Shown here: positions 1 through 61,373 of the stretch, piece after piece
Layout of the letters: every line of letters begins with the position of its first letter
Numbering within the stretch: the first letter of the stretch is position 1
Virus record (IMG/VR): IMGVR_UViG_3300019776_000299
Span: 1-61,373 of that record
Length of the DNA stretch: 61,373 nucleotides
Source: a virus
Strand: one strand, 5' to 3'
Position numbers and translations under genes: made by a program
Notes under the pieces: model-generated
What the model saw: only the letters and a program-made list of their open reading frames with translations
The model's database searches: none
What the model was told of the DNA's origin: nothing

Positions 1-99
1 CTGCCCCCAACACGGAGATACGACAATGACCAACAACCTTCTCGCGGACCAGATTGGCCAGCTTGACGCCCAGATCAAGGTCCTGACGGAACAGCTTGA
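1..99. repeat. Terminal direct repeat, left copy (circular closure)
   Basis: These 99 bases are identical to the last 99 bases of the window (61275-61373). An exact overlap of this odd length is what an assembler leaves when it closes a circular or circularly permuted genome. It starts mid-leader and ends mid-gene, so it is unlikely to be a biological terminal repeat. The promoter for the first gene therefore lies at the far end of the window. Confidence 0.9.
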
Positions 100-304
100 A
101 GCCCTCAAGAAGCAGGCGAAGTCCTCCGGCCTTGACGAAATCGTTGGCCAGACGTTCGTGGTTTCGATTGGCAACAGCATTCGCGCCTCTTTCGACACCG
201 CTCAAGTCAAGAAGGAATTTGGCCAGCAGTGGTACGATGACCGCTGCAAGCTGGCGGAAGTGACTACCGTTCGCATTAAGGTCCGCCCTGAGGCGCTGGT
301 CTAA
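26..304 (+). CDS. Small early protein with N-terminal coiled coil
   Basis: A 92-residue protein of unknown function. Residues 5-35 form a heptad-rich helix (QIGQLDAQIKVLTEQLEALK), followed by a compact mixed domain ending in alternating hydrophobic residues (TTVRIKVRPEALV). It is the first gene of a rightward early transcript. Its promoter and leader lie at 61223-61299, and the ribosome site CGGAG precedes the ATG. A hairpin terminator follows directly, so it may be expressed alone. The coiled coil suggests an oligomer or a partner-binding protein. I do not recognise the family. Confidence 0.8.
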   Translation: MTNNLLADQIGQLDAQIKVLTEQLEALKKQAKSSGLDEIVGQTFVVSIGNSIRASFDTAQVKKEFGQQWYDDRCKLAEVTTVRIKVRPEALV

Positions 305-368: not shown

Positions 369-560
369 ATGACATCTGACGATTTCCGTGCCTACCTCGC
401 CCTGTGCGCCCAGCGCGGCACGCCCGAATGGCGCGTGGCCGAAATGCTGGGATGCGGGCGTAACAGCATCACGTCTTGGAAGCGCAAAGGCGCTCCCCTG
501 TATATCGCATTGGCCGTAGCAGCCTTAGAGAAGGAATTGTCACCGTGGACAAGCAAGTAA
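369..560 (+). CDS. Small Cro-like helix-turn-helix protein
   Basis: A 63-residue protein whose residues 18-42 (EWRVAEMLGCGRNSITSWK) form a helix-turn-helix: a helix, a G-C-G turn and a recognition helix ending in WKRKG. The size fits the smallest Cro/XRE-type DNA-binding proteins. AGGAGG lies upstream but 11 bases from the ATG. It overlaps the next gene's GTG start by 16 bases. It is one of three candidates for the factor that binds the shared early-promoter dyads. Confidence 0.65.
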   Translation: MTSDDFRAYLALCAQRGTPEWRVAEMLGCGRNSITSWKRKGAPLYIALAVAALEKELSPWTSK

Positions 561-32847: not shown

Positions 32848-32862
32848 TGGTCAATGCTCCTC

Positions 32863-33450: not shown

Positions 33451-33544
33451 CCCGGTTCTCCTAAGGGACGATCATATCAAGGTAAGCACCGGGCCACCGC
33501 ATGATCAAACAAAGGTTAATCCTTCGCCGGGAAGGAATGAGATG

Positions 33545-33573: not shown

Positions 33574-33578
33574 TAGAC

Positions 33579-33610: not shown

Positions 33611-33640
33611 GCTCGACAGGCAGAAAGCTGACGCCCCTGC

Positions 33641-35106: not shown

Positions 35107-35116
35107 TTATGTCCTC

Positions 35117-35509
35117 CTACCAGACAGTGTCAGGCGTAGGGATGCGCCCGCGAATGTCGGTGTCATCAAGAATGCGGCACAACTGCCCATGCACGGTGAT
35201 CGCCCAACCATCGCTGGGGCGGAAGTAAATCCAGTCACCAACGTCAAGGTTCACGCCTTTGAACCACTTGCCGCTTTCATCAACAAAGGCATCCGCGCCC
35301 TTCTTGATGATAAGGCCAACCTTGCCCTGATACTTGTCTTCGTCGCGGGTCTGCGCAGACAGGTACAATCCGCTCTTGGTCTTCTCAGGGCGGATGTAAA
35401 TGGCGACAAGAACCTGATTGTGGAAAATCTCAATGTCGCTGATGTCGCCCATTTCCTTGCGGATGGCCTCAGCGGGATCGGTGGCGTGTTCCATACGCAT
35501 GTATGGCAT
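35117..35509 (-). CDS. GroES-like co-chaperonin
   Basis: A 130-residue protein whose residues 24-120 follow the GroES order. A first strand (DIEIFHNQVLVAIYIRPEK) leads to the mobile-loop position TKSGLYLSAQ, then YQGKVGLIIKKG, DVGDWIYFRPSDG and a C-terminal strand with CRILDDTDIRGRI. Phage GroES homologues replace the host co-chaperonin to fold capsid proteins. It lies just upstream of the scaffold gene. No GroEL gene is present, so it would work with host GroEL. Confidence 0.8.
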   Translation of the reverse strand: MPYMRMEHATDPAEAIRKEMGDISDIEIFHNQVLVAIYIRPEKTKSGLYLSAQTRDEDKYQGKVGLIIKKGADAFVDESGKWFKGVNLDVGDWIYFRPSDGWAITVHGQLCRILDDTDIRGRIPTPDTVW

Positions 35510-35511
35510 GT

Positions 35512-35733
35512 CTAGCTCCCCTGTTGTGCTTTGTTGATTTCGGTATTCACTTCGTCAATCATCTCAAAGGCAATGTTGATGCCCCGGACGATGCCAGCCT
35601 GATACTTGTAATCGGCAAAATTTTCGGCGTTACCCGTCACAATGCGTTCGCTTTCGCGGATCGCCGCCTCTTGCAAGCGCTTCGCAAATACCTTTTGCCA
35701 AAACGTGTCGTAAGTCTGCATCGCATACAACAC
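35512..35733 (-). CDS. Small helical protein of the head operon
   Basis: A 73-residue helical protein (69 if the second ATG, at 35721, is used; neither has a clear ribosome site). It contains FAKRLQEAAIRESERIV and YKYQAGIVRGINIAFEMIDE. Similar short proteins lie by portal, scaffold or capsid genes in other phages. Its function is unknown. It is the first gene after the promoter at 35770. Confidence 0.6.
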   Translation of the reverse strand: MLYAMQTYDTFWQKVFAKRLQEAAIRESERIVTGNAENFADYKYQAGIVRGINIAFEMIDEVNTEINKAQQGS

Positions 35734-35769
35734 GTAGTAAATGGCAAGAAGTTAATCTATTTACTTGCT

Positions 35770-35798
35770 ATTATGTAAATGTGGTTATGCACTGTTAA
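35770..35798 (-). promoter_or_regulatory. Leftward late promoter of the GroES-scaffold operon
   Basis: Read leftward: -35 TTAACA (35793-35798), 17-base spacer, -10 CATAAT (35770-35775). The -35 overlaps the T-run of the terminator that ends the upstream transcript, giving a compact terminator/promoter junction like the one at 33545-33610. Confidence 0.65.
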
Positions 35799-35827
35799 TA
35801 AAAAGGGCCGGGAGTTACCCCAGCCCT
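35797..35827 (-). terminator. Intrinsic terminator
   Basis: Read leftward, AGGGCTGGG pairs with CCCGGCCCT (one T-G pair) around a short loop, followed by TTTTTATT. It ends the transcript from the terminase, portal and 483-residue genes. The stretch 35828-35908 holds a CCTGTC/GACAGG stem and no gene. Confidence 0.75.
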
Positions 35828-35908
35828 AAAATTGGTGCCGCAAGGGGAAGCACACTTATGTCGGCTTGCTTCCTGTCAGGCGACCGACAGGCCCCTTGCA
35901 GCGCGGCC

Positions 35909-37360: not shown

Positions 37361-37402
37361 GTTTGTCTCCTTGAGTACGCTCAGTGTACTGTTTTTATTT
37401 GT

Positions 37403-39332: not shown

Positions 39333-42300
39333 TCAGACCTCAGAAGTTAAAGCCAGAGCGCGGCCAACTGTGTCACTATCAGCATATTTTGTGCTGCCTG
39401 TCACGCGGCCACCCTTTTTGAAGTCAGAGAACCGGGCCCTCTGGAAGTCATCAGTCAGGCGGAAACCAAGCTGCTCACGCGGGCCATCAGCCGTCTGGAC
39501 GGGGATGACCTCCCACTGGACCTTCTGACCCGTGGCGTCCTTGACTACCTTCTCTACGCGCTTTTTGTAGATGTTATTGTAGTAATCAATCATGCCCTCG
39601 CCGCCCGTCTTCAGATCAAGACCAGACAATTCAAGCGGGCTGCTGGCGAACTCATTGGCCAGCATTTCATTCAGGTAATCTTTGGCGTGGCCCTTGCTGG
39701 GGAATGTTTCGCCACTTGGCTCACCGTAAAGATAAACGCCCCACTCTCCGGTTTCAGGGTCCTTCACAATTTCGTACTCTTCAATAGCGGAACGGCGGCT
39801 TTCCTCCTCCAAGCGCATCTTATCAGCCAATTCCTTGCCGATATATTCGTCAAGGTCAGATGGATCGCTGATGCTTTCGTTGACCACCATCTTGCCATTG
39901 GGGTCATAAGCCAAAAGGCTTCCATCATCCGGATTATACTGGACCTTGCTGATATGTTTTTGAAGATTGAAGCGCTCAGCCTGAGCTTCGCCCGGGGTAA
40001 ATGTGAAGTAATCCGCGCCAGCGTCCAACGCCTGATCCAGAGACTTCTTGATTGAAAGGTCTGTCCAGCCCTGTGTAGAACTAATGTAAGGGGCGGCCTC
40101 AACCATGTACTGCTCTTTGTTCATGGCTTCAAATAGGCTTCTATATTCTTCGCCACGCCCCAGTTCATCTGCGATTTTGTTTGCGCCCTTCTGACGCGCA
40201 ACCGTAAGAGCGTAACTCCGGGCCTTTTCAAAATCATTGTCATAGTAGTGCGGGGCAGCATCAAAGGCGGCCTTCGCCTTTTGCTCGACCCATTCATTGG
40301 TGTTGGCCTTTACGGCATTATCATATTCTTTCCGCCAGTTTTTGCTAAGGTCCTTGACGCCGCTCTTACGCCCTGCCTGAGCCCAGTCACTCTGGGTTTC
40401 ATCAACATTAAACGCCTTGTAAGGGCGGTTAGCGCCTTCAGGGGTCACATCAAGAATTTGGCTGCGGACATGGCTGATCACGTCAGGTTCATCCCAGTGC
40501 CCTGACCGGAACTTCCCGCCTTCACGGTGCAGAGACTTCGCAGCACGCTCCGCGTCAGCCTGACTGTAATAGGTGTACGGGCCGCCAGACTGGTTCCTAA
40601 GCGTTTCTCCGTCAGGACCGACGATGTGCCACATGCGGTCCTTTTGGACAACATTCGGGCGCTGAGAGCTTCCAAGCCGGATCAAGGTTTCGCGATAATC
40701 TTGACCGCCCGGGGTGGAGTAATCTTGGTACTTTGTAGGGGTGCTAAGTCCGCCAATGCTGTCAACGTACTCCTGCTTCATAGCCTCATGGAGGTCAATA
40801 ATTTCGCCATTATAATCTATGCCGTCTTGCAGCAGACTTAGATAAGTCTGGTCCTTTAAATGAAGTGGGTTGGTAGGGTCGCCTCCTAAAGATTGCTTTA
40901 TGCCGCGCGCCGCAAGATTTGCGCGCGTCTTTTTTTCCATCAATTCGTTTATTTTTGGTTCGTATTTCTGGCGAATTTCAGCGGGTACATCCTCAACCTT
41001 AACATCAGCAAGGCGCGTTGGCTTATTACCGCCCAAAACAACGTTCTGTGTCTGAACGCGGTTCTTCGTCAGATAGTCCACAAGGTCCTGCTTCGTGATT
41101 TGCTTCTGCTGGGGCAGGAATGCCTCCGCGCCAGTCCAGCGAAGCTCTTCAGGCGAAACGCTCTTGCGCAGCATGGCCAAAGCCTGCTGGCCAGTCATCT
41201 TCTCCATGGGAAGAGCTTGCGCGGCTTCCATGGCCTTGGAGAACCAACGCGCAGGGCCAGCTTCAGCCTCCGCAGGGTCTAAGAAGTAATTAGCAGCACC
41301 AATGCCAGCGGCCTTGGCGTACTTGCCGCCCGGGCCGAAGCCAATGGCAAGGCTGGCCGTCAGCGGGTCATTCGTGGCCACGCCCTCGGCCACATCCATT
41401 CCAGCGGCAACGGGGGCGGTGAACGGATTAAGATAGAACGGGACGGTCTTCAGGTCATATGCGGTTTGCGCCATGCCGCTCATGCCGGGAGCAACGTCAT
41501 AAGGAGCCGTGCCCATGCTGTACTCGCCGCCAAACAGAGGCATGTCTACAGTGACTTCGCGGCGCGGCTTTGCCCCCACATGCGTCATCTGCTGAGTTTC
41601 GCGGGGCTGGGCGGCGACCGCAGCCTTGGTGGCCTCATAGTCCGCAATATCGCGGTCAGGGACGGCGTAATACTCCATGAGCGCGTCATAGGTAGCCGGG
41701 TTAGATACAGCCCGCTGGGCGACCGCCTGAGGGGCATCTGTACGTGCTGGGTTAGGACCGGGTGCCGTAGGCGGGATCAGATTGCCCTGAGCATCGTACT
41801 TGTTGCCCTTGGCATCCTCCATCATGACGGGCGCAGTACCGCCGCCCACATCCTTGGCGAGGCGAACGGCGTCAACAATGTCATCGTCAACCGCGCCGCC
41901 GTCAGCGTATCCCCACGGCATTGGGTTTTCCTCCCAATACTTTTCAATGTTATCAGCCCACTCATTTGTGGCCTTCTGCTTGGGGAATTGCGTAATCATT
42001 GACCACTGAGCCTTGGAGGGGTCCACTTTTGCGTTTGGGTGCAATTTCTCAAACCATTGGGGGAACATAAGGCGAGAAGGCGTAATATTTTGGAAACCTC
42101 CAGAATACCCTTCTGGCGATTTTATCTTGTTGCTGTATGTGCCGTGCTGTGGGCCAGCAGTCATTGTTTCAAGGGTTGGCTCTACCTTCATGAAAGAAAA
42201 GCCGGAAGAACCCAGCGGCAGCCCGATCAGACGGGGTTCAGATACAGCAAACCTAACCTCTCCAGCATCTGGGAAGCCAGCCGCTCGATACTCTTTTTTG

Positions 42301-45300
42301 TCCATTTTCTTTACAAAATCTGAAAGGTGCGATCCGGGCCTTCCGCGCGCGTTCATAAACGCCAACGCCTTGTCAGTTTTTGCGATACCCGGCCAATCCG
42401 GGTAAGTTTTCTTCATTTCTGCGTCAAATTTAGCAATATCTGCCCGCGCAATCTTGCTGTTTGGTATCATTTTTATGATCGTGTCAGCCATCATGTGGGT
42501 GCTATCTACCGCCTCTGGCCCCATGGAGACAGATGTCAAATATGGAACTTCGCCCTCCTTGGTGCGCTCCGCAAGCCGTTCTGCCATGGTATTTGCGGCG
42601 TCTTCGCGGCTGGCCCACGCAGCGGGCGCGTCCCCTTGGCCAAACCTGTCCCGCGCAAACTCAAACCCGCCATGGAGGTCCGTAGGATTTGCAAGACGAT
42701 TGGCTCCAACTTTGGCAAGGCGTTTCCCAGCGGCGCTTAGATCGCCGACAGCCGGATAAATGACGGCGTTTTCCTTAACCAAATCGTGCGGGCGCTTTTT
42801 TAAGTAATCAATAAGCGGGCGAACCTCATCATATTCAGCCTGCATTTCTGTCAACGGCACGCCATAACGCTCGTTCCCTAAAGCGGGAACGCCACGCTCA
42901 AAATTGCGCGATTTCCTGACAAGATCACTGCCCTCAGAACGGAAAACCTTGTCAACAGGCGCTGGAGGGAGGTTGCCAAATTCACGCTGCAAATACTTAA
43001 GCGCAGCCTCAACATTTTTATCAGACACAAACCCCTTTCCAGCATACCCCTCGCGCACAGCGCCGCCACCAGCCTTCTCAAGATATGTAAACGGCTCCAT
43101 GACGCCTGTTTTCTGGTCTGCGAAGACCGTGTCCTCAGACGCCGCATTGCGGTTGCTGGGGCCGTGCGGGCCATAGTTCAGCCAGCTATTCTGACCGCGT
43201 GTTTCGCTGGTCATCGCAGGCAAAGCCTCAGGCGAATACATGCGGCGGTGCAGCAAGTAAGCGCGCTCTTCACCCGGAGCGCGGAAGAATGGGTTGCCGG
43301 GTCCATAATGTCCGTACAAATCATGCACGATACGGAAGGCGTCATTAACGGTAGCGTTATCAAGATCACCCACGCGGCCAATACGCTTCAGTAGAGGGTT
43401 CTGCGATGGATCAAATTCAATGCTAGAACCGAAGCCCGCGTCAGTCGGGAAAAAGCTGAGGCTCCCACGCTCTGCGATATCCGCATAGCCAAGAGACGGG
43501 CTGGCTGCATACGGGTCTTTGCCACGGATCGCAGTGAACGCAATCCCAGCATCTTCAGCGGCCTTAAGCTGGTCAATTGTCTCTTGCGCCATAGCATCAT
43601 AAGAACGGCGCACAGCCGGGTCATCAGGTGCGTGCTTCATGCGGTCGTAAGCCTCAGCGACACGCATAGCAAATTCTTCATCCAAAGATGGATATTGCTC
43701 CATCTCATGGCTTCCAATAACGCCACGCTTTTTCAAATATTCAGTCGCGGCGTCCATGATTTGTGGGATGGGCTTTGCCTCAGCCTCGCCAACAAAAGGC
43801 AGCTTCACAGACGATGGCTTTCCCGGAACGCCCTTATAACCGGACCCCGGAGGCGTGAGCGCAGAAAGCCCCTTACGCTCTGAAGGCCCTAAAAGCCCAA
43901 TAGTGGCGCGGCGAAGGAACCCGCCTCCATCTGCCTTTTCAACCCGCCCGCCATCAGCATCAGAAATTCTCTTACTGGACGCCTTGAACGGATCAAATGC
44001 ACCAAACCGTGAGCGGATGTTCTTGGGGTCAAACACAATGTAATGGCGCGTAGACCCACCAGTTCCCGGCATACCAACACGGCCAAGACCACCAGCAAAT
44101 ACGTCTGTGGCCATATCTATGCTGTCGTACCCCAAGCTTTGGAAGACATCAGCCATAACATGGCCGGGGCTGACCATGTTTCCATTGTCATCCATAAGAT
44201 CGAAGACGTTTTCGCCTACAACCTTCCTGTATGTCTTGGCGTCTATTCCTCCGTTATTGCTGATTTCATCATATAAAGCGGCAGAAACCCTATCAACTTC
44301 ACTGTCGCGCGTCCCATAATCGTACAGGGCTTGGCGTGTTTTCTCTACTAGATCGGCAGCGGGGCCACCCTCTGAAATGATGTCCCCGTCTTCGTCATAC
44401 TGGACATCATAAGGCCAGAAGGTCTGATTTGGGCTGTCAATTACAACAGGGTTTTTCATGCGAAGGTTTACAGGGTAAACAGCACCTTCGTTTGTGATGC
44501 CAAGGTTCTGGCGCGCAAGATCATCCGAAAACTGCTTTACAATTTTCGGGTCCATAGGGTTGCCAGTAAATTCCGTGCCGTACTTGTCGCGGTGCCAATC
44601 CAACACGTCATTCGGGTGGAAGTTATCTAGAATGTTTTCAGCCTCCCGCTCAAGACGCATGGTCAGGTCAGGGCCAGCCGCCGTGGCATAGTTCTCACTG
44701 GCGTCTACAGGGCTTGTGGTAAAGTATTGATGGCCACCCCAGTAGCCTTCGGGATTGCTATACCTGTTGGAGAACTGAGAAATGTTGCGCGGGCTTCCAT
44801 GGTAAGCCGGGACATTCACGCCAAGGTCTTGGCGGCGCTCCTCCAAGCTCTGCGGATCAAACGCAAGATTAGGATCGCGCTGATTAAGATACTCAACCAG
44901 ACTGCGCGTCTCAGCGTCCGCCCCCGGGGCAACGTCAACCTTAAAACCGGGCTTAAGGTGGGAAGGGATTTCATCGACGCCGTAACGCATGGCGGGGGCG
45001 GCTTCTTCACCAGCGCCAGACGTCAGCTTCAGCGCCTGCTCCACAACATCACCGACTACACGCCCTTTGCCAGCGTACCCTTCGCGGCGGGGCAAGTCAG
45101 ACACGCCAGCCGCTTCGTTAATGGCTTTTACCTCATCATCTGTCAGGAGGCGGTTTACGCGCATGTCACCACCAATGAGCCAGTTCCCGGTCATGTTTGG
45201 GTTAGTTTTGTAACGGTAGTGGCCTCCAAAAGGCACCTGATCGGTGATGTGGGCAGTTTTGGGATCAGGCGTGCCTTTTTTAGTAATACGGGCCCGTTCA

Positions 45301-45683
45301 TTGGCTACCTTCTGCCAATCTACATCATCAGCCATTTCCACCTCAGCCCATACTTGGCTAGACGGGCGAGTGTCCGGGGGGAGCTTTGGATCACCGTGAG
45401 AACGGGCACCAATATGTGTGGCGACAGGCAAGTCACCCGCGTGCCATCCCGGCCTGTAGGCAAGCTCACCAAGCTTTGACTTTACTTTGCCGCTTGCAGA
45501 CTGCTCTCCAGCCTTGGCCTTGAGCCATTCGCCAAGCGCAACTTCTTCATTTGCGTCAACGAATAAAGGGTACAGCTTTCCATCTTTCTGGCGGAATAAC
45601 TTGTAAGCCTTCACTGTCTTCTGCGGGTCGCTGCCAGCGACGAGCTTCAACGCCTGCCCTACAACGTCCTTTTTGCCAGCCAT
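39333..45683 (-). CDS. Giant polyvalent protein with ADP-ribosyltransferase-like and other domains
   Basis: A 2116-residue chain of at least four domains. Residues 20-195 are a domain of phage polyproteins (RPGWHAGDLPVATHIG). Residues 290-565 form an ADP-ribosyltransferase-like domain (AYHGSPRNISQF, GGHQYFTTSPVDASENYA, HYIVFDPKNIRSRFGAFDP). Residues 640-865 hold FRIVHDLYGHYG and TSETRGQNSWLNYGP, with an HD...GH metal-like pattern. Residues 900-1250 are another polyprotein domain. Residues 1440-2080 carry NVDETQSDWAQAGRK and TPGEAQAERFNL. Domain borders carry repeated glycine-hinge/helix tags. Such polyvalent proteins are thought to be injected with phage DNA to act on host defences. That role is inferred here. 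Confidence 0.75.
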   Translation of the reverse strand: MAGKKDVVGQALKLVAGSDPQKTVKAYKLFRQKDGKLYPLFVDANEEVALGEWLKAKAGEQSASGKVKSKLGELAYRPGWHAGDLPVATHIGARSHGDPKLPPDTRPSSQVWAEVEMADDVDWQKVANERARITKKGTPDPKTAHITDQVPFGGHYRYKTNPNMTGNWLIGGDMRVNRLLTDDEVKAINEAAGVSDLPRREGYAGKGRVVGDVVEQALKLTSGAGEEAAPAMRYGVDEIPSHLKPGFKVDVAPGADAETRSLVEYLNQRDPNLAFDPQSLEERRQDLGVNVPAYHGSPRNISQFSNRYSNPEGYWGGHQYFTTSPVDASENYATAAGPDLTMRLEREAENILDNFHPNDVLDWHRDKYGTEFTGNPMDPKIVKQFSDDLARQNLGITNEGAVYPVNLRMKNPVVIDSPNQTFWPYDVQYDEDGDIISEGGPAADLVEKTRQALYDYGTRDSEVDRVSAALYDEISNNGGIDAKTYRKVVGENVFDLMDDNGNMVSPGHVMADVFQSLGYDSIDMATDVFAGGLGRVGMPGTGGSTRHYIVFDPKNIRSRFGAFDPFKASSKRISDADGGRVEKADGGGFLRRATIGLLGPSERKGLSALTPPGSGYKGVPGKPSSVKLPFVGEAEAKPIPQIMDAATEYLKKRGVIGSHEMEQYPSLDEEFAMRVAEAYDRMKHAPDDPAVRRSYDAMAQETIDQLKAAEDAGIAFTAIRGKDPYAASPSLGYADIAERGSLSFFPTDAGFGSSIEFDPSQNPLLKRIGRVGDLDNATVNDAFRIVHDLYGHYGPGNPFFRAPGEERAYLLHRRMYSPEALPAMTSETRGQNSWLNYGPHGPSNRNAASEDTVFADQKTGVMEPFTYLEKAGGGAVREGYAGKGFVSDKNVEAALKYLQREFGNLPPAPVDKVFRSEGSDLVRKSRNFERGVPALGNERYGVPLTEMQAEYDEVRPLIDYLKKRPHDLVKENAVIYPAVGDLSAAGKRLAKVGANRLANPTDLHGGFEFARDRFGQGDAPAAWASREDAANTMAERLAERTKEGEVPYLTSVSMGPEAVDSTHMMADTIIKMIPNSKIARADIAKFDAEMKKTYPDWPGIAKTDKALAFMNARGRPGSHLSDFVKKMDKKEYRAAGFPDAGEVRFAVSEPRLIGLPLGSSGFSFMKVEPTLETMTAGPQHGTYSNKIKSPEGYSGGFQNITPSRLMFPQWFEKLHPNAKVDPSKAQWSMITQFPKQKATNEWADNIEKYWEENPMPWGYADGGAVDDDIVDAVRLAKDVGGGTAPVMMEDAKGNKYDAQGNLIPPTAPGPNPARTDAPQAVAQRAVSNPATYDALMEYYAVPDRDIADYEATKAAVAAQPRETQQMTHVGAKPRREVTVDMPLFGGEYSMGTAPYDVAPGMSGMAQTAYDLKTVPFYLNPFTAPVAAGMDVAEGVATNDPLTASLAIGFGPGGKYAKAAGIGAANYFLDPAEAEAGPARWFSKAMEAAQALPMEKMTGQQALAMLRKSVSPEELRWTGAEAFLPQQKQITKQDLVDYLTKNRVQTQNVVLGGNKPTRLADVKVEDVPAEIRQKYEPKINELMEKKTRANLAARGIKQSLGGDPTNPLHLKDQTYLSLLQDGIDYNGEIIDLHEAMKQEYVDSIGGLSTPTKYQDYSTPGGQDYRETLIRLGSSQRPNVVQKDRMWHIVGPDGETLRNQSGGPYTYYSQADAERAAKSLHREGGKFRSGHWDEPDVISHVRSQILDVTPEGANRPYKAFNVDETQSDWAQAGRKSGVKDLSKNWRKEYDNAVKANTNEWVEQKAKAAFDAAPHYYDNDFEKARSYALTVARQKGANKIADELGRGEEYRSLFEAMNKEQYMVEAAPYISSTQGWTDLSIKKSLDQALDAGADYFTFTPGEAQAERFNLQKHISKVQYNPDDGSLLAYDPNGKMVVNESISDPSDLDEYIGKELADKMRLEEESRRSAIEEYEIVKDPETGEWGVYLYGEPSGETFPSKGHAKDYLNEMLANEFASSPLELSGLDLKTGGEGMIDYYNNIYKKRVEKVVKDATGQKVQWEVIPVQTADGPREQLGFRLTDDFQRARFSDFKKGGRVTGSTKYADSDTVGRALALTSEV

Positions 45684-50188: not shown

Positions 50189-50494
50189 CTACGGCCTAAA
50201 CCTATCATCATTCCCAATTGAACGCTTTTTATAGCTCAACAAGAACAATATGCAGCATCCGGCGTGGGCAAGATGAGAGTAGCCAGTTTCCGGGTCCAAG
50301 TTTTCCCCACGCCACCAAGCCCACATATGGCGCATAAGCGCAGAGAACGGGCGCGACCAATCCATGCCTTTCTCCCAATTGCGGGGCGAGTATTTCCGCT
50401 GCCCGTAGTCAAGGACGCGCAATATCTCCTCAATCGCGTCAGACGGGAGCAGATGATACGGAAGCTTGCCCTGATCGTCTTTACGCCCCTCCAT
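50189..50494 (-). CDS. dATP/dGTP diphosphohydrolase-like protein (MazZ/DUF5664 type)
   Basis: A 101-residue protein matching the phage dATP/dGTP diphosphohydrolase N-terminal family of the all-alpha MazG group: KDDQGKLPYHLLPSDAIEEI, then YGQRKYSPRNWEKGMDWSR, ALMRHMWAWWRGENLDPETG and SHLAHAGCCILFLL. The metal site would use Glu/His residues of these helices. Such enzymes hydrolyse purine dNTPs to monophosphates. In Z-genome phages they act with PurZ, but no PurZ gene is seen here, so a nucleotide-pool role is more likely. Confidence 0.75.
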   Translation of the reverse strand: MEGRKDDQGKLPYHLLPSDAIEEILRVLDYGQRKYSPRNWEKGMDWSRPFSALMRHMWAWWRGENLDPETGYSHLAHAGCCILFLLSYKKRSIGNDDRFRP

Positions 50495-50726
50495 GGTCGC
50501 TCCCGCGCTTAATGGTCAACTCCATGCCAAGCACGGAGAAACAAGCAGCCAAATTGTGGACCTGAGGCACGCTGCGGCGCTTCCAATCATTAATCGTGTT
50601 TTTGTTAATTCCAGAACGCTTGGACATATCTAATATGCCTAATTGCTGATGGTTCATTTCCTCAAATAGCCGCCGCACCAGCGGGTGCGCGTGGGCCGGG
50701 ACCGTCAAGCGGCGGAAGCGTCTCAT
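50481..50726 (-). CDS. XRE-type transcription regulator
   Basis: An 81-residue protein. Residues 13-70 are a helix-turn-helix of the XRE/Cro group: LVRRLFEEMNHQQLGILDMS, then KRSGINKNTINDWKRRSVPQ, then LAACFSVLGMELTI. It overlaps both neighbours by 4-14 bases within the accessory late operon. It is a candidate regulator, with unknown target sites. Confidence 0.75.
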   Translation of the reverse strand: MRRFRRLTVPAHAHPLVRRLFEEMNHQQLGILDMSKRSGINKNTINDWKRRSVPQVHNLAACFSVLGMELTIKRGSDHGGA

Positions 50727-55732: not shown

Positions 55733-55761
55733 TTGCAATCGTCCCTGATCCGTGACATATA
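55733..55761 (+). promoter_or_regulatory. Early promoter A with TCAC-N6-GTGA-type operator
   Basis: -35 TTGCAA (55733-55738), 17-base spacer, -10 CATATA (55756-55761). The spacer holds TCCC-TGATCC-GTGA (55742-55755), one mismatch from the shared dyad. Downstream are a GGCC-N6-GGCC stem (55771-55784) and the GGCCCCCA block shared with promoters B and C. Confidence 0.7.
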
Positions 55762-55800
55762 GTGGTCATAGGCCACTGATGGCCCCCACGGGAGACTAAA

Positions 55801-56091
55801 ATGACGAAGCTCAAGACCGAATACGATGCCACCCTTGAAGTCTGGTTTGCCTATGACGGCGACACCCGCGACAACAGCCGCGCCCTTGGTCAGGGCACCA
55901 CCCCTGAGGATGCACGCTCTGACTTCTGGTATCAGGTCAATGGCGAAGCGGCTGACCTGTACTATCAGGATGAGACGGAGTGCTGGGTCCTGAGGCAGGG
56001 TCCTTGGCATGGCCTGACCTTCGACAGCAAGGAGGCCGCCATCGCCTACGCTGACAATCACGAATGGCAAGTGAAGACATTGGGGGTTTAG
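55801..56091 (+). CDS. Early protein of unknown function
   Basis: A 96-residue acidic protein with a beta start (YDATLEVWFAYDGDTRD), a helix (TPEDARSDFWYQVN) and a second alpha-beta unit (FDSKEAAIAYADNHEWQVK). The order suggests two small repeats of a strand-helix unit. Its own promoter and a terminator flank it, so it is expressed as a single-gene transcript. Confidence 0.7.
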   Translation: MTKLKTEYDATLEVWFAYDGDTRDNSRALGQGTTPEDARSDFWYQVNGEAADLYYQDETECWVLRQGPWHGLTFDSKEAAIAYADNHEWQVKTLGV

Positions 56092-56105
56092 GCCCCCTTT
56101 TTCTT
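56082..56105 (+). terminator. Intrinsic terminator overlapping the stop codon
   Basis: GGGGG (56082-56086) pairs with CCCCC (56093-56097). The TAG stop lies in the loop, and TTTTTCTTT follows. It is the same design as the terminator at 1112-1137. Confidence 0.8.
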
Positions 56106-56116
56106 TACATACCCCG

Positions 56117-56145
56117 TTGACAGCATCACTGATACGGGATATGAG
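56117..56145 (+). promoter_or_regulatory. Early promoter B with TCAC-N6-GGGA operator
   Basis: -35 TTGACA (56117-56122), 17 bases, -10 TATGAG (56140-56145). The spacer holds TCAC-TGATAC-GGGA (56126-56139). The leader has GGCC-N6-GGCC (56156-56169), then CCCCCA and the ribosome site AGGAGC. Confidence 0.75.
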
Positions 56146-56190
56146 AGTGGTCATAGGCCAATCACGGCCCCCAACTAGGAGCTACCTCAA

Positions 56191-56841
56191 ATGACCTACG
56201 ATACTGAACTGACCCGCTTCCAGAACTTCACCCGCAACATTGGCGTCAATGTGCCGGATCACGTCAACCCGGACAACGAAGGCGCTTATGTCGCCTCTGC
56301 GGTCAACCGCATCACCGCCAACTGGGTCAAGGGCAATCACACCCGCTGGTTCGCCGCTCACTCTGACGCCCGCGTGCTGCGCGACTGGCTTCTGGGCTAC
56401 TCTGACGATCTACCCCGCCGTCCGTCCGGTTCTGGCTTCGGTGAGCTTCTGGACAAGCTGGCGCGCGATCTGGACGAATGCGGCAATCTGTCGGACAAGC
56501 AGACCGCGATTGTCCGCAACGCGCTGGCACGCCAGATTGAGTTCGCCGCCAAGCGCAAGACGGAGTTTGCGGCCAAGAACGCCTCCAGCCAGCACATTGG
56601 CACCCCGGGCAAGCGCGAAGTGTTCAACCTGACTGTCCAGTGGTTCAAGTCGTTTGAGGGAACCTTCGGCCTGTCCTACATCTTCGGCTTGCGCGATGCC
56701 GCTGACAACATCGTCATCTACAAGGGCACCAAGTACCTTGGCGACAAGGGTCAGGCCATCAACGTCAAGGCCACCGTGGCTGAGCATGGTGAGCGCGATG
56801 GTGCCAAGCAGACGATCATCAGCCGCCCCGCCGCAGTCTAA
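56191..56841 (+). CDS. Early protein with C-terminal KQTIISRP motif
   Basis: A 216-residue protein. Residues 1-80 are helical with FQNFTRNIGVNVPDH and TRWFAAHSDARVLRDWL. Residues 85-125 are a helical hairpin. Residues 138-216 form a beta-rich domain (VFNLTVQWFKSFEGTFGLSY, VIYKGTKYLGDKGQAINVKA) ending HGERDGAKQTIISRP, a C-terminal pattern recurrent in phage proteins and suggestive of a small nucleic-acid or partner-binding barrel. Function unknown. Confidence 0.7.
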   Translation: MTYDTELTRFQNFTRNIGVNVPDHVNPDNEGAYVASAVNRITANWVKGNHTRWFAAHSDARVLRDWLLGYSDDLPRRPSGSGFGELLDKLARDLDECGNLSDKQTAIVRNALARQIEFAAKRKTEFAAKNASSQHIGTPGKREVFNLTVQWFKSFEGTFGLSYIFGLRDAADNIVIYKGTKYLGDKGQAINVKATVAEHGERDGAKQTIISRPAAV

Positions 56842-56847
56842 GCCATA

Positions 56848-56869
56848 CAGGGGGCCTCAGTGCCCCCTG
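56848..56869 (+). terminator. G/C hairpin without T-run; weak terminator or attenuator
   Basis: CAGGGGGC (56848-56855) pairs with GCCCCCTG (56862-56869) in the gap after the 216-residue gene. No T-run follows, so read-through into the next gene is likely. It may protect the upstream mRNA end. Confidence 0.5.
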
Positions 56870-56889
56870 CCCACCATCAGGAGGATATT

Positions 56890-57132
56890 ATGAGAAACAC
56901 CGAAATCACCCACGTCCAAGAAATCCTGCGCCATATTCGGCAGGCCCTAGAGTTCATTGACGGCCAAAGCGACCGCCAGGCGGCCCATGTACACGCCGAT
57001 CTGAAGAACGCTGCATTGCGCGGGGAAATCTTGATCCGTGAATGGCGGCGGGACCAGCAGAAGGCGACAGAGGCACGCCTGAACCGCCGCTACAACCCGG
57101 CTGAAGACCCCGATTACGACGATATTTCGTGA
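56890..57132 (+). CDS. Small helical early protein
   Basis: The ATG at 56890 follows AGGAGGATATT. The 80-residue product is helical: ITHVQEILRHIRQALEFID, then ADLKNAALRGEILIREWRRD, and an acidic end DPDYDDIS. It has no recognised family. It is probably co-transcribed with the preceding gene. Confidence 0.7.
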   Translation: MRNTEITHVQEILRHIRQALEFIDGQSDRQAAHVHADLKNAALRGEILIREWRRDQQKATEARLNRRYNPAEDPDYDDIS

Positions 57133-57139
57133 CACCCCA

Positions 57140-57169
57140 TTGACCCATGTCACCTATACGTGATATGGG
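57140..57169 (+). promoter_or_regulatory. Early promoter C with perfect TCAC-N6-GTGA operator
   Basis: -35 TTGACC (57140-57145), 18-base spacer, -10 TATGGG (57164-57169). The spacer contains TCAC-CTATAC-GTGA (57150-57163), with perfect arms. The leader carries GGCC-N5-GGCC (57181-57193), then CCCCAATG and site GTGAGG. Confidence 0.75.
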
Positions 57170-57210
57170 TCTTTTCGTTAGGCCATCCCGGCCCCCAATG
57201 TGAGGTTCCA

Positions 57211-57384
57211 ATGTTCTCTGACACCGTAAAGTTCTCCACCCGCAAGCTGCCCAACGGGCACACGATCTTCACCATCCAGTTCAAGGACGGGCGCGCAATT
57301 GACTTCGCCACCGCCAAGCTGCTGGCAGCCTACCTCAACCAGCATGACCTCGAAATCGAACTGAACAACGGGAGGGCCGCTTGA
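57211..57384 (+). CDS. 57-residue early protein
   Basis: Starting at the ATG after GTGAGGTTCCA, the product is MFSDTVKFSTRKLPNGHTIF, TIQFKDGRAIDFATAKLLAA, then a helix YLNQHDLEIELNN. It reads as a small beta-beta-alpha domain. It is the first gene of a four-gene rightward unit. Confidence 0.7.
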   Translation: MFSDTVKFSTRKLPNGHTIFTIQFKDGRAIDFATAKLLAAYLNQHDLEIELNNGRAA

Positions 57385-57656
57385 CCCTCACAGAGACGTT
57401 CCCGGCCCCCACAACGGCAGCGGGGAGGCTATACTGGCTTCCCTGCTACGTTCGCCTCGCACGGGCTGTCTATGACACCTACATGCGCTCCCACGAAGAC
57501 CGTGAGCGGGAGCAACATATCCGCTCATGCGCTACCCGGTGGGGCATCACACGCCGCTGTGCGCTGGCCCTGCTGACTGGCGAAGCCACCTATGAACTGA
57601 CCGACGATACCGTAACCTTGACCCGTACTATTGTAGAGGACAACCATGCTCATTAA
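57381..57656 (+). CDS. 91-residue early protein (TTG start)
   Basis: Begins with TTG overlapping the previous stop (TTGA), with GGGAGGG upstream. Helical N-terminal half (LYWLPCYVRLARAVYDTYMR), a basic helix-turn-helix-like segment (IRSCATRWGITRRCALALLT) and an acidic strand-rich end. DNA binding is possible but weakly supported. Confidence 0.65.
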   Translation: MTLTETFPAPTTAAGRLYWLPCYVRLARAVYDTYMRSHEDREREQHIRSCATRWGITRRCALALLTGEATYELTDDTVTLTRTIVEDNHAH

Positions 57657-57822
57657 CATCACGCAATACCCCGTATCTACGCTGGAGCCTGAAGAGCGCG
57701 ACTTTTGGGGCGAGTATGAACTGGATGAGGTAGACGCGCCGCTGGCCCAAGACGAAGCCTTCCGGGTGCTAGAGGGCCGCGTGTTTGAAGCGGTTTGGCC
57801 CTGCGATGAGTTCCCTTGGTGA
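57646..57822 (+). CDS. 58-residue acidic early protein
   Basis: Overlaps the previous gene by 11 bases, with AGAGGACAACC before the ATG. The acidic product starts MLINITQYPVSTLEPEERDF and ends VFEAVWPCDEFPW. Small acidic early proteins often bind host enzymes or mimic DNA, but no target can be named. Confidence 0.7.
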   Translation: MLINITQYPVSTLEPEERDFWGEYELDEVDAPLAQDEAFRVLEGRVFEAVWPCDEFPW

Positions 57823-57830
57823 GGCGCGGC

Positions 57831-58001
57831 ATGAAGCGCCATGAACCCTGCGCCCATCTTCGCCCTGATTACGATAGGCTGGAAAGCGCCCACCATATCC
57901 GCCGCCACCCCGTCACAGATGAGATTAGCTGGGAACCTACTGGCATGATGCAGGAGCTTGCACGCCTTGGGCTGGTGGATGGTGCTGGCGGCAAGACTTG
58001 A
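57831..58001 (+). CDS. 56-residue early protein overlapping the tRNA on the other strand
   Basis: ATG at 57831 with GAGGCG just upstream. The product MKRHEPCAHLRPDYDRLESA ... SWEPTGMMQELARLGLVDGA ends with codons that lie opposite the 3' end of the tRNA-Thr gene. Function unknown. It is the last gene before the rightward terminator at 58061. Confidence 0.55.
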   Translation: MKRHEPCAHLRPDYDRLESAHHIRRHPVTDEISWEPTGMMQELARLGLVDGAGGKT

Positions 58002-58056
58002 ACTTGCGACCTACCGCTTACAAGGCGGTTGCTGCTACCAACTGAGCTACGCCAGC
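57980..58056 (-). tRNA. tRNA-Thr (anticodon UGU)
   Basis: Read leftward, the acceptor arms GCTGGCG/CGCCAGC pair fully. The anticodon stem ACCGC/GCGGT encloses CTTGTAA (anticodon TGT, codon ACA). The T stem GCAAG/CTTGC encloses TTCAAGT, and ACCA is encoded at the end. The D stem is only 3 base pairs (GCT/AGC, with a C-C mismatch). It is the last element of the leftward 58089-59851 operon and could supply a codon rare in the host. Confidence 0.9.
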
Positions 58057-58060
58057 ATGA

Positions 58061-58090
58061 GGGGAGGTTATTAGCCTCCCCTTTTCTTTT
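58061..58090 (+). terminator. Intrinsic terminator of the rightward early unit
   Basis: GGGGAGG/CCTCCCC, a perfect 7-bp stem with a 7-base loop, followed by TTTTCTTTT on the plus strand. It stops rightward transcripts that would run antisense through the tRNA and into the convergent operon. Confidence 0.85.
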
Positions 58091-58808
58091 AGGGAATATG
58101 CTTCTTGATGGCCGCTTCCAGCTTCTCCAGCTTGGCAACGCGGTCCAGAATAGACGGGATGTTAAGCCCGCCGACAATGGCGCGGATTTCCTCAATCTGC
58201 TTCCGCACCGCCTCTACAGACTTCAGCCCATCCTTAAAGACGCGAAGCTCCTCCACGCCCTTGCGGAACGCCTCAATATCCGCATTGGTGTTGATAGGGC
58301 CAAACATCTCCTCACGGACTTGCTCCACCCATGCGCGCGGAACCCCCAGATCGGTGGCAACCTTGTGGTCACTCCACTCCGGGTCATATCCGCGCTTTTC
58401 GTCCAGATAGACGCTGTTGAGCTTCTCAAAGATGATACGCCTGTCATCGCGCTGCATGATGCGCGGGGCGTCCGCATTTACAACCAACTCTGGCTTCAGC
58501 TTCACCGCCTCTGTCTCCTCAATAATTTCTGGTTCTTCCTTCGGCACCACCTTCAGGGCTGGCCTTGCCTCGCGCGACTGAACGCAATCAGGGCAAAAAT
58601 CCCAATTGTCGTTTGAACCTATCTCCCATCCCCTCTGGATGAACTTCTTTTCAATGGCCACGGGCGGCAACAGCCCATAGGCGGTCTTGATGGAAAGGTT
58701 CTCTACCTTGGCGCAATTGCGGCAAGCAATAACAGCTACACGCCGCCATTGCCCGCCAAGGTTCTCGCTAGCCTCCTTGAAGGTTCTTGTCTTGTGGCCC
58801 CTCTTCAT
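58089..58808 (-). CDS. Zinc-ribbon protein with predicted DNA-binding region
   Basis: A 239-residue protein. Residues 28-75 contain CRNC and CPDC, a zinc ribbon. Residues 115-170 contain RDDRRIIFEKLNSVYLDEKR, YDPEWSDHKVATDLGVPRAW, VEQVREEMFGP, a helix-turn-helix-like block of a family seen in alphaproteobacterial phages and genomes. Residues 180-239 are a coiled coil (EAVRKQIEEIRAIVGG, RVAKLEKLEAAIKKHI). It is a likely DNA-binding regulator, possibly oligomeric. Confidence 0.7.
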   Translation of the reverse strand: MKRGHKTRTFKEASENLGGQWRRVAVIACRNCAKVENLSIKTAYGLLPPVAIEKKFIQRGWEIGSNDNWDFCPDCVQSREARPALKVVPKEEPEIIEETEAVKLKPELVVNADAPRIMQRDDRRIIFEKLNSVYLDEKRGYDPEWSDHKVATDLGVPRAWVEQVREEMFGPINTNADIEAFRKGVEELRVFKDGLKSVEAVRKQIEEIRAIVGGLNIPSILDRVAKLEKLEAAIKKHIP

Positions 58809-59092
58809 GCCTGCTTTTTCCTGCGCTTGGATTTCTTGCGTTTGGACTTCTTGGCGGCCTTCTTCTTGGCCTCAGGCTTCTTGACTTCCGGGGGCATACG
58901 GTCATCCCGGGGCCCCTCTGTCCTGTGGACCTTACTGGCGTACTCCTGAGGGGTCAGGAACTGCCCTTCTTCGCGGACAAGGAAATGCGCCGTCTCCGGG
59001 CATGAGTACGCCACCGTTTCGGTTTTGCCGGGGAGCGTTGCCACCGCGCTCATGCAGGGCAGCAACACAACCGCGATAAACTGCTGCATCAT
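58805..59092 (-). CDS. Putative exported protein with lysine-rich tail
   Basis: A 95-residue protein. The start FIAVVLLPCMSAVATLPG looks like a signal peptide or lipobox-like region. The middle includes YSCPETAHFLVREEGQFLTP. The last 25 residues are nearly all Lys, Arg and Ser (KKAAKKSKRKKSKRRKKQ). Such a tail could bind nucleic acid or the membrane surface. The function is unknown. It overlaps both neighbours by ATGA. Confidence 0.6.
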   Translation of the reverse strand: MMQQFIAVVLLPCMSAVATLPGKTETVAYSCPETAHFLVREEGQFLTPQEYASKVHRTEGPRDDRMPPEVKKPEAKKKAAKKSKRKKSKRRKKQA

Positions 59093-59400
59093 GCAGCGGA
59101 GGCAACCTCGCCAGCGCTGCCATCGTCCTCGCCCTGATCAACGATCATTTCGGGCTTGGGCATGTTGGCGTTTTCGATAACAGTTGTGAACGGATGGCTG
59201 TTTCCGATCATGCGCGAAACAGCCCTGTCACGCTCATCGAAATTGGCGACAATGTCGCGCTCCAGAGCGTCTATGGCTTCCCGGATAATCTTAACGCCAT
59301 TCATCAGGTTGCGGCGTGCGTCAGCCGAAAACCGCTGTTCGCGGGCCAGATCGTTCTGAATGTCAGAAATAGACTGAGAGAGGTGAAGCAGGGTGGTCAA
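59089..59400 (-). CDS. Helical protein of the leftward early operon
   Basis: A 103-residue protein with a long coiled coil (HLSQSISDIQNDLAREQRFS, MNGVKIIREAIDALERDIVA) and an acidic tail. It contains no motif that reveals function. ATGA overlaps at both ends. Confidence 0.65.
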   Translation of the reverse strand: MTTLLHLSQSISDIQNDLAREQRFSADARRNLMNGVKIIREAIDALERDIVANFDERDRAVSRMIGNSHPFTTVIENANMPKPEMIVDQGEDDGSAGEVASAA

Positions 59401-59615
59401 TTACTGTCTCCATAAGTTACATCATCGCTTCTGGTGGAAGGGTTCAAGGTTTCGTCAATGAGTACCAGCACCTCATCAACGGCCATGTCATACCCGGCGT
59501 CAAAATCATCTACGACAACCGGAATGTTCATACGGACGATCTGATCGCGAAGCGTCACCAGCGCCTGTTCAGCGGTGGAGTGCTTCAAGTGCTTCCTGCG
59601 CAACCAGCGGAACAT
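59397..59615 (-). CDS. Small protein of the leftward early operon
   Basis: A 72-residue protein with a basic start (FRWLRRKHLKHSTAEQALV) and an acidic second half (DFDAGYDMAVDEVLVLIDE). Function unknown. It overlaps neighbours by 1-4 bases. Confidence 0.65.
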   Translation of the reverse strand: MFRWLRRKHLKHSTAEQALVTLRDQIVRMNIPVVVDDFDAGYDMAVDEVLVLIDETLNPSTRSDDVTYGDSN

Positions 59616-59851
59616 CAGTTCATCACCCTCTTAGCTGCCTCAATAGACATCTCCTCAAGGCGGTCCATGATGGCGTCAGCCTCATCAGGGTGGTCATCCG
59701 CTATCGCGTTGATGGCGGCGACACACAGGTGAAGGGCGGCATTCAGGAGCGTAGCCCGGTCAATCGGCTTCAAATCCATGAAAGCCTTTTCGGACTGCAA
59801 CTGGACCCCGGGGGAACCGTTATCCAGTATGATCATGCGAATTGTCGCCAT
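59615..59851 (-). CDS. Small helical protein, first gene of the leftward early operon
   Basis: A start at 59851 gives 78 residues: ATIRMIILDNGSPGVQLQSE, then a helical part (RATLLNAALHLCVAAINAIA, EADAIMDRLEEMSIEAAK). The ribosome site is weak (GCAAGAA), and the ATG five codons later is the alternative. Function unknown. Confidence 0.6.
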   Translation of the reverse strand: MATIRMIILDNGSPGVQLQSEKAFMDLKPIDRATLLNAALHLCVAAINAIADDHPDEADAIMDRLEEMSIEAAKRVMN

Positions 59852-59881
59852 TTCTTGCAAATTCAGCCCTCCGAATAGCCC

Positions 59882-59912
59882 AATATAGCACAAAACCGGG
59901 CCTTATGGCCCG
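59882..59912 (-). promoter_or_regulatory. Leftward extended -10 promoter with upstream hairpin
   Basis: Read leftward, TGCTATATT (59882-59890) is an extended -10 element. In place of a -35 there is a CGGGCC/GGCCCG hairpin sequence (59897-59912) followed by GGTTTTG. It would start the 59851-57980 operon. The hairpin might instead be a weak terminator for transcripts from the right. Confidence 0.5.
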
Positions 59913-59948
59913 TAATCCACTGTTTTTAACAAAAACGCATTCAGGGTG

Positions 59949-60004
59949 TTGACAGGCGTCACTGATAAGTGCATAGAAGTCTCACGAACGAAATGGTTTC
60001 GTTC
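59949..60004 (+). promoter_or_regulatory. Early promoter E with operator and leader stem-loop
   Basis: -35 TTGACA (59949-59954), 17 bases, -10 CATAGA (59972-59977). The spacer contains TCAC-TGATAA-GTGC (59959-59972). The leader lacks the GGCCCCCA block but has a strong GAACGAAA/TTTCGTTC dyad at 59986-60004, upstream of the AAGGAG site. Confidence 0.7.
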
Positions 60005-60029
60005 AAAACCCCACCAAGGAGCTACTAAA

Positions 60030-60929
60030 ATGAACAATATCAGCATCGCCCGTCAGGTTCGTCGTTTTGGTCGCGGCGGCATCCAGCTTCAGGCCCAGCG
60101 CGGCGAGGCCCTTTCCTATGAGCAGATCGCCCAGTTCGCCCCCACCGTCTTTGCCAGCGAACGCCACGCCTCGCGCTCTGAGCGGTTTCAGGTGATCCCC
60201 ACCCACGAACTGCTGTCAGGCCTTTCCAAGGAAGGCTTCGTGCCCGTCAAGGTTCAGGTCGGCGGTTCGCGCGACGAAGAGAAGCGCGCCTTCACCAAGC
60301 ACCTGATCCGTTTCCGCCGTCAGGATGACCTCGCTGGCGTTCCCAAGGTTGGCGACAGCCACCCGGAAGTGGTTCTGCTCAACGCCCACGATGGCACGTC
60401 TTCCTACCAGCTTCACGCTGGCCTGTTCCGTCTGGTCTGCCTCAACGGCCTCACCGTTTCTGACGCCAACTTCGGCAGCGTCAAGGTGGGCCACTCTGGC
60501 AGGAACGTTCTGGACAAGGTGATTGAGGGCACGTACCGCGTTCTGGACGATGCGGTGCTGGCGCTGGAGAGCGCGCAAGAACTGCGTTCCGTGCCGCTCA
60601 GCAGGGATGAGCAGCGCATCTTCGGTGAGGCCGCCCTGCGCCTGCGCTTCGACGAAGAGAAGCTGCCGCTTGTTGAAGGCACTCAGGTCATCCGCCCGCG
60701 CCGTGAGGCTGACGTTGGAAATGACCTGTGGCTGACCTTCAACCGCGCTCAGGAAAACCTCATCCGTGGCGGCCTCCAGTATCGCCACCAGAACGAAGAG
60801 ACGAACCGCGTGACCTATCGCGACACGCGGGCCGTCAACAGCGCTGACGGAGACCTGAAGCTCAACAGGGCCTTGTGGCACCTCGCCAATGAGTTTGCCA
60901 AGCTCAAGGGCGCGACAGTGGCAGCCTAA
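60030..60929 (+). CDS. DUF932 family protein
   Basis: The ATG at 60030 follows AAGGAGCTACTAAA, giving 299 residues. The DUF932 pattern is clear: ASERHASRSERFQVIPTHEL, LSKEGFVPVKVQVG, LIRFRRQDD, HPEVVLLNAHDGTSSYQLHA and GLFRLVCLNGLTVSD. A helical C-terminal half follows (VIEGTYRVLDDAVLALESAQ). DUF932 proteins are frequent on phages and plasmids and may take part in DNA maintenance or anti-defence, but no activity is established. It is transcribed alone from promoter E. Confidence 0.85.
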   Translation: MNNISIARQVRRFGRGGIQLQAQRGEALSYEQIAQFAPTVFASERHASRSERFQVIPTHELLSGLSKEGFVPVKVQVGGSRDEEKRAFTKHLIRFRRQDDLAGVPKVGDSHPEVVLLNAHDGTSSYQLHAGLFRLVCLNGLTVSDANFGSVKVGHSGRNVLDKVIEGTYRVLDDAVLALESAQELRSVPLSRDEQRIFGEAALRLRFDEEKLPLVEGTQVIRPRREADVGNDLWLTFNRAQENLIRGGLQYRHQNEETNRVTYRDTRAVNSADGDLKLNRALWHLANEFAKLKGATVAA

Positions 60930-61162
60930 TCCTCAGCAGACGGGGCATAGGGCGTAGGGGAAATAACCTCTACGCCCTTTTTCTTTTGATACCTCCAGCG
61001 CTTCTCAGGGCGAAGCGCGAAGTAAACGGCAGTCGGCGTGACGCCCACGGCTTCCGCGATCTGGGCGTAGGTGTGGCCCTGATCACGCATCGTCTTGGCC
61101 CATTCGTGCCAAGAGCCGCGCTTCACTTTCGGGGTTTGTACGGGTTCTGGTGTGTTGGTCAT
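60926..61162 (-). CDS. Small HTH protein, candidate early repressor
   Basis: A 78-residue protein. Residues 15-52 form a helix-turn-helix (SWHEWAKTMRDQGHTYAQIA, EAVGVTPTAVYFALR) flanked by basic segments (KRWRYQKKKG). It is a lone leftward gene between the two rightward early units, divergent from promoter D, the layout expected of a regulator controlling that promoter. It is the strongest candidate to bind the TCAC-N6-GTGA sites. Confidence 0.75.
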   Translation of the reverse strand: MTNTPEPVQTPKVKRGSWHEWAKTMRDQGHTYAQIAEAVGVTPTAVYFALRPEKRWRYQKKKGVEVISPTPYAPSAED

Positions 61163-61222
61163 CCAGAAAACTTACATTCATTTCAGGAAGTAAAAAAGTT
61201 GGTTGTCCACCGATTTTAACTA

Positions 61223-61251
61223 TTGCAATCATCCCTGATCCGTGAGAGAAG
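61223..61251 (+). promoter_or_regulatory. Early promoter D (serves the gene at position 26 across the join)
   Basis: -35 TTGCAA (61223-61228), 17 bases, -10-like GAGAAG (61246-61251, poor). The spacer contains TCCC-TGATCC-GTGA (61232-61245), nearly identical to promoter A. The leader has GCATAGG and TGCCCCCAA. The poor -10 suggests weak or activator-dependent use. Confidence 0.6.
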
Positions 61252-61274
61252 GGGTGCATAGGCGGTCGCGGTGA

Positions 61275-61373
61275 CTGCCCCCAACACGGAGATACGACAA
61301 TGACCAACAACCTTCTCGCGGACCAGATTGGCCAGCTTGACGCCCAGATCAAGGTCCTGACGGAACAGCTTGA
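61275..61373. repeat. Terminal direct repeat, right copy
   Basis: Identical to bases 1-99. It holds the second copy of the ribosome site and the first 74 bases (from 61300) of the 92-residue early gene, which is complete at the left end. It should be counted once in the circular genome. Confidence 0.9.

Follow-up and report, generated by a model that had tools for sequence, protein, structure and literature searches.

Dyad elements in the spacers of early phage promoters, putative operators of a small phage-encoded repressor

How phages that depend on the host RNA polymerase and lack a lysogeny cassette achieve temporal control is poorly understood, and the question arises in the IMG/VR virus record IMGVR_UViG_3300019776_000299 (G000), whose 61,373 nucleotides (positions 1 to 61,373) are referred to here as the window. 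What is the function of the dyad TCMC-N6-GKGM, which lies between the -35 and -10 boxes of all five of its rightward early promoters (dyad starts at 55742, 56126, 57150, 59959 and 61232)? We propose that these dyads are operators of a small phage-encoded helix-turn-helix (HTH) repressor, most likely the product P0004, which would shut off the early promoters together with its own operon, and we put the probability of this at roughly 0.6. That the predicted operator-bearing promoters form a phage regulon is, at the level of sequence, well supported, because the dyad is conserved at orthologous promoters, is symmetric in three separately diverged classes and has counterparts of the same design in cultured phages.

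All five 14-mers listed in the original prediction were verified at these positions, and its claim that the element fills the end of the spacer and touches the -10 box is borne out by the boxes of every promoter: the dyad begins 3 or 4 bases 3' of the -35 box (TTGACA, TTGACC or TTGCAA) and its end abuts the -10 box or overlaps it by one base. The -10 hexamers are mediocre, and the poor GAGAAG at 61246 is GATAAG in the nearest relative, G001. Promoters 1 and 5 are near-duplicates across 23 bases, and promoter 5 drives the gene at 26 by reading across a 99-base direct terminal repeat, so the record does contain a promoter that crosses the genome join, as had been claimed. The bare TCAC-N6-GTGA, with at most one mismatch, is not enriched in the whole window (18 found, 19.4 expected), so that the whole-genome motif search envisaged in the original prediction succeeded for the dyad behind a -35 box but not for the dyad by itself. 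Searching the window for the dyad together with the -35 pattern gave five sites, against a mean of 0.25 and a maximum of 1 in dinucleotide shuffles; this pattern was fitted to the window itself, and G001 serves as the independent test. Two further good dyads, at 4571 and 53774, were discounted as operators, being within leftward coding sequence without a promoter module and probably due to chance, and scanning generically for palindromes of any kind behind TTG gave too much noise to be informative.

Conservation and operator classes

The relatives compared were G001 (IMGVR_UViG_3300045580_000138), G002 (3300032318_000380), G003 (3300037042_002822), G016 (3300032287_002763), G014 (3300017747_002027) and G015 (3300045580_000303). 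In G001, which has about 80% nucleotide identity to the window, the same search returned five sites against 0.13 expected. The dyad is kept at all five orthologous promoters, in line with the conservation in relatives on which the original prediction had staked its regulon, and the differences between orthologs within the dyad still fit TCMC/GKGM; a sixth dyad promoter of G001 is located at 2380 on the minus strand.

More distant relatives keep the promoter layout and the leader and swap in another element that is shared within each phage. The class I operator, TCMC..GKGA, is found in G000, G001 and G015 (in the last at the first promoter). The class II operator, TCACCAATTGGG-like, is present in 4/4 promoters of G002, where the -35 boxes, leaders and genes are retained and the early proteins P0006 and DUF932 are 80-83% identical to those of the window. 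Class III, TCCCG..CGGGA (TCCCGNANNCGGGA-like), accounts for all six promoters across G003 and G016, and the class IV element, TCCARATMTGTGCGAT, is common to three G014 promoters and is not clearly palindromic. Compared with shuffled spacers, dyad symmetry was significant in G000, G001, G003 and G016, where p=0.0005 is the lowest value that the test can give, and in G002 (p=0.004).

The leaders of these promoters share a hairpin of 4-9 base pairs, with one mismatch allowed, in 21/21 promoters of five phages. It starts 13-17 bases past the dyad, a few bases past the predicted transcription start, and is followed by a C-run, a ribosome site and ATG. The hairpin covaries, with at least six different stem sequences, the stem types being GGCC/GGCC; GGGC/GCCC and longer; GGCGGTC/GACYGCC; GAACGAAA/TTTCGTTC; GGTCGGAA/TTCTGACC; and ACTGAGGC/GCTTCAGT. 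Scored at the hairpin position only, the hairpins summed to 318 against 142 +/- 19 for shuffled leaders; folding z-scores over the whole leader were unremarkable (mean -0.62). An alignment that contained one mistyped leader (G001 42825) was set aside. A first leader-pattern search gave a chance match inside a tail gene of L047, and a second gave mainly chance matches in other genes together with two new relatives, L077 and L089. A further hairpin (CAGGGGGC..GCCCCCTG) lies between two cistrons at 56842-56893 of the window, ahead of a ribosome site and ATG, a layout like that of the promoter leaders but without a promoter, and L077 has a comparable one.

Homologs of the early protein P0002 occur in cultured phages of Rhizobium, Sinorhizobium, Agrobacterium and Roseobacter, and three of those phages show a repeated, phage-specific spacer element. 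In the 69-kb genome of Agrobacterium phage 7-7-1, TACAA-N5-TTGTA has seven sites against 0.08 expected, each of them preceded by a TTG box and immediately followed by the TA-rich -10 box of a rightward early promoter, and a small XRE gene, 7-7-1_00068, is among the early genes. The 7-7-1 genome paper found no evidence for how transcription is timed, listed five putative promoters and did not mention a palindrome in its main text (PMC3517404). The present design offers 7-7-1 a concrete, testable answer on timing, namely a single type of dyad that recurs in the spacers of seven early promoters, plus a small early HTH gene. Within 25865-39122 of this genome, TACAAATnATTTGTA lies between -35 and -10 in seven to eight early promoters. 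Roseobacter phage CRP-901 has TTGTAATCTGTGACANNTGTCA in four promoters, followed by an AT-rich -10 box; at 12025-14301, TTGTAATCTGTGACAnnTGTCAC is common to four rightward promoters, with a degenerate copy at 1592 on the other strand. In Sinorhizobium phage HMSP1-Susan (L095), GCAATGTTCCAT is common to about six promoters and is not clearly palindromic; its copies at 968, 2241, 43580, 44241, 45219 and 46167 stand mostly behind TTGACAAAT-like -35 regions. Promoters of Rhizobium phage P106B had no clear repeated spacer dyad. Neither P0004 nor P0001 has a detectable homolog among the cultured phages of the collection (no tblastn match for either), so these phages have the design in common but not the regulators.

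Candidate regulators and alternative readings

Two small HTH genes, P0001 on the minus strand and P0004 on the plus strand, lie one on either side of the 61232 promoter. Both have homologs in G001, G002, G003 and G016 and in 0/10 more distant phages with a related primase-helicase, which qualifies the earlier remark that the genome has no obvious repressor cassette, while the regulon proposed alongside it stands. Within the compared part of G016, the only window products common to all four others are P0006, P0004, P0001 and the 59615-59893 product. P0004 lies downstream of P0006 in the operator-driven operon in 5/5 phages covering the region, and in five phages the dyad sits in the promoter of P0004's own operon. 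Its AlphaFold model is a confident four-helix HTH (predicted local distance difference test, pLDDT, 85), with SinR, HipB, P22 Cro, 434 repressor and Aca1 as weak structural neighbours and mostly XRE proteins among the best PDB matches. The P0004 recognition helix is GCGRNSITSW in both class I phages (G000 and G001), GCGVNSVVRW in class II (G002), and GCGKNSIKTW or GCGKNSIKAW in class III. Since this helix is identical where the operators are alike and different where they differ, P0004 is probably the likelier operator reader, and so the gene at 369, named second in the original prediction, fits better than the 78-residue protein, P0001, that was named first. The third candidate, the 50481-50726 product, was set aside because it is not among the open reading frames shared with G002 and the class III phages. 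No relative of the P0004 family was found in bacterial genomes, and the P0001 family had one 22-residue match there, in a Gemmatimonadota metagenome-assembled genome.

Operators read instead by the divergent P0001, in a CI/Cro-type arrangement, represent the alternative that survives best, although we consider it unlikely. P0001 is present in the same phages as the promoter module, adjoins and diverges from the 61232 promoter in G000, G001 and G002, has an HTH core by both HTH_7 match and AlphaFold model, and its recognition helix is identical in both class III phages. It is nevertheless the weaker candidate because its recognition helix differs between G000 (VTPTAVYFALR) and G001 (VSTPAVYFAVN) despite their shared operator. 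Furthermore, P0001 is only 58% identical between these two phages, compared with 90% for P0004, the G003 P0001 adjoins no operator, and the P0001 model (pLDDT 68) is a bare three-helix core without a dimer domain, nearest to an archaeal virus open reading frame and recombinase HTHs.

It is improbable that a host regulator binds the dyads, such that the phage times its early genes by host control and the classes reflect different hosts. The hosts of the contigs could indeed differ, and the evidence on P0004 and P0001 is purely correlative, yet G000 and G002 have early genes of about 80% protein identity and very similar leaders while every operator changed together, a change paralleled in a small HTH gene of the operator-driven operon. 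Equally improbable is that the element belongs to the promoter itself, as a spacer sequence or activator site that became shared when promoter cassettes were duplicated, for although copying does occur, as the near-duplicate promoters 1 and 5 show, copying alone explains neither dyad symmetry in three different sequences nor ortholog changes that preserve TCMC/GKGM, and 7-7-1 has near-perfect dyads of another sequence at the same position.

Several observations weigh against operators read by P0004, beginning with the occurrence and position of P0001 just described. The right half-site of class II is imperfect, and the class IV spacers of G014 gave no significant result in the palindrome test (p=0.6 and 0.24). 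Matches of P0004 to known repressors are all weak (structures at E >=0.5, Aca1 by sequence at E of about 0.9), and against the XRE/HTH_3 family models it had no HTH_3 match and only an HTH_23 match at E=0.0013, below the cut-off of that model. A P0004 sequence is available for only three of the operator classes, and within each class the phages are closely related, so common descent could account for the agreement between helix and operator. Finally, the protein that binds the dyad may activate rather than repress.

On balance we favour repression by P0004, and from sequence we infer binding, repression, the identity of the binding protein, timing and leader function as follows. Upon entry, host sigma-70 RNA polymerase would fire the five rightward early promoters, and the promoter 5 operon would make the regulator, most likely P0004. 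Once accumulated, the regulator would bind the dyads as a dimer between -35 and -10 and block polymerase, shutting down all five promoters including its own, such that the early genes would be expressed as a burst. The feedback would be negative, Cro-like or Aca-like, and the leader hairpin probably protects the 5' end of the mRNA. In the related phages, operator and regulator would have changed specificity together with the rest of the promoter unchanged. A search for a tyrosine integrase (PF00589) in G000, G001, G002, G003, G015 and G016 found none, a negative that is weakened by the incompleteness of some of these records, and no resolvase (PF00239) was found in G000; a lytic phage with early shut-off would be the simplest reading. 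A more speculative and rather doubtful extension is that an early regulon of this autoregulated kind, with a single operator in each promoter spacer, is in wide use among Alphaproteobacteria phages in which no integrase is detected. Close relatives would then come to differ in their operator-regulator pair, forming incompatible classes, and an infecting phage would silence the early genes of a co-infector of the same class, a form of heteroimmunity without lysogeny.

Gene layout of the window

The record is probably a complete genome, given the direct repeat at the window ends, and megablast of the window against cultured phages gave no match. Structural and replication genes run leftward and the operator-bearing early genes rightward (Table 1), and the products include an SU10-like portal, terminase, primase-helicase and tail proteins. 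Within the early block, between promoters 3 and 4, a tRNA-Thr (TGT) gene lies on the minus strand at 57980-58056. Also on the minus strand, 39333-45683 encodes a 2116-residue protein with a weak match to PF18760 (ADP-ribosyltransferase-in-polyvalent-protein) and adjoins the portal gene, and among the structural genes a glycosyltransferase-family gene adjoins a collagen-like-repeat gene (21491-22573 and 22570-23619, both on the minus strand).

Table 1. Early promoters, leader hairpins and genes of the window (aa, amino acids)
Feature	Position	Strand	Details
Early promoter 1	55733..55761	+	-35 TTGCAA 55733-55738; dyad TCCCTGATCCGTGA 55742-55755; -10 CATATA 55756-55761; G001 ortholog dyad TCACTGATACGTGA
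Early promoter 2	56117..56145	+	-35 TTGACA 56117-56122; dyad TCACTGATACGGGA 56126-56139; -10 TATGAG 56140-56145; G001 ortholog dyad TCACGGATCAGTGA
Early promoter 3	57140..57169	+	-35 TTGACC 57140-57145; dyad TCACCTATACGTGA 57150-57163; -10 TATGGG 57164-57169; G001 ortholog dyad TCCCTGATGCGTGA
Early promoter 4	59949..59977	+	-35 TTGACA 59949-59954; dyad TCACTGATAAGTGC 59959-59972; -10 CATAGA 59972-59977; G001 ortholog dyad TCACGGATGCGTGC
Early promoter 5	61223..61251	+	-35 TTGCAA 61223-61228; dyad TCCCTGATCCGTGA 61232-61245; -10 GAGAAG 61246-61251; same dyad in G001 ortholog
Leader hairpin 1	55771..55784	+	GGCCA-CTGA-TGGCC
Leader hairpin 2	56156..56169	+	GGCC-AATCAC-GGCC
Leader hairpin 3	57181..57193	+	GGCC-ATCCC-GGCC
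Leader hairpin 4	59986..60004	+	GAACGAAA-TGG-TTTCGTTC; G002 ortholog of unrelated sequence, equal hairpin form
Leader hairpin 5	61261..61279	+	GGCGGTC stem; perfect in G001 ortholog
Early gene, 96 aa, function not assigned	55801..56091	+	
P0002, early gene, 216 aa, phrog_27218 (function not assigned)	56191..56841	+	homologs in Rhizobium, Sinorhizobium, Agrobacterium and Roseobacter phages
Early gene, 57 aa, function not assigned	57211..57384	+	
DUF932 protein, 299 aa	60030..60929	+	PF06067 E=2e-40
P0001, 78-aa HTH protein, divergent from promoter 5	60926..61162	-	HTH_7 E=3e-5
P0006, 92 aa, promoter 5 operon gene 1	26..304	+	
P0004, 63-aa four-helix HTH protein, promoter 5 operon gene 2	369..560	+	

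Comparison with known systems

The predicted control resembles that by Cro/CI-type repressors such as those of 434 and P22, in that a small phage HTH protein would lie in an operon controlled by its own operators. The 434 operator consists of two 4-base half-sites 6 bases apart, as does the window dyad, and the P0004 model weakly resembles the 434 and P22 proteins. It differs from these in having one operator per promoter at five to six scattered promoters, in that no integrase was found in G000 and the relatives searched, and in that P0004 has no significant HTH_3 match. In P1 (C1) and in L5/Bxb1 (stoperators), one phage repressor acts at many genome-wide sites, which are asymmetric and serve immunity in temperate phages, whereas the dyads described here are confined to early promoter spacers.

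Aca proteins are small HTH autorepressors whose target is an inverted repeat lying within an early operon's core promoter (PMC9410906). An inverted repeat is likewise found within the core promoter of P0004's own operon, and P0004 weakly matches Aca1 in both sequence and structure. The operon under Aca control is acr-aca, whereas here the site recurs at several separate early promoters; no acr gene was noted, although no dedicated acr search was made. In cluster K mycobacteriophages, repeated start-associated elements (SAS/ESAS) with inverted repeats occur at many genes, with conservation per gene family and consensus differences per phage (PMC3203893). The likeness lies in an element that is repeated at several genes and has a consensus differing between phages, but the ESAS comprises 17-base inverted repeats with a variable spacer and is tied to a start-codon element, whereas the dyad here covers 13-15 bases and lies in the promoter spacer.

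Early repression by a small phage HTH protein is an already known kind of control. What appears to be new here is that such repression would be spread over several promoters, with operator classes switching among relatives. The naturally occurring operator classes and the regulator variants that match them would provide a ready set for studying how a repressor changes its specificity across a whole regulon at once.

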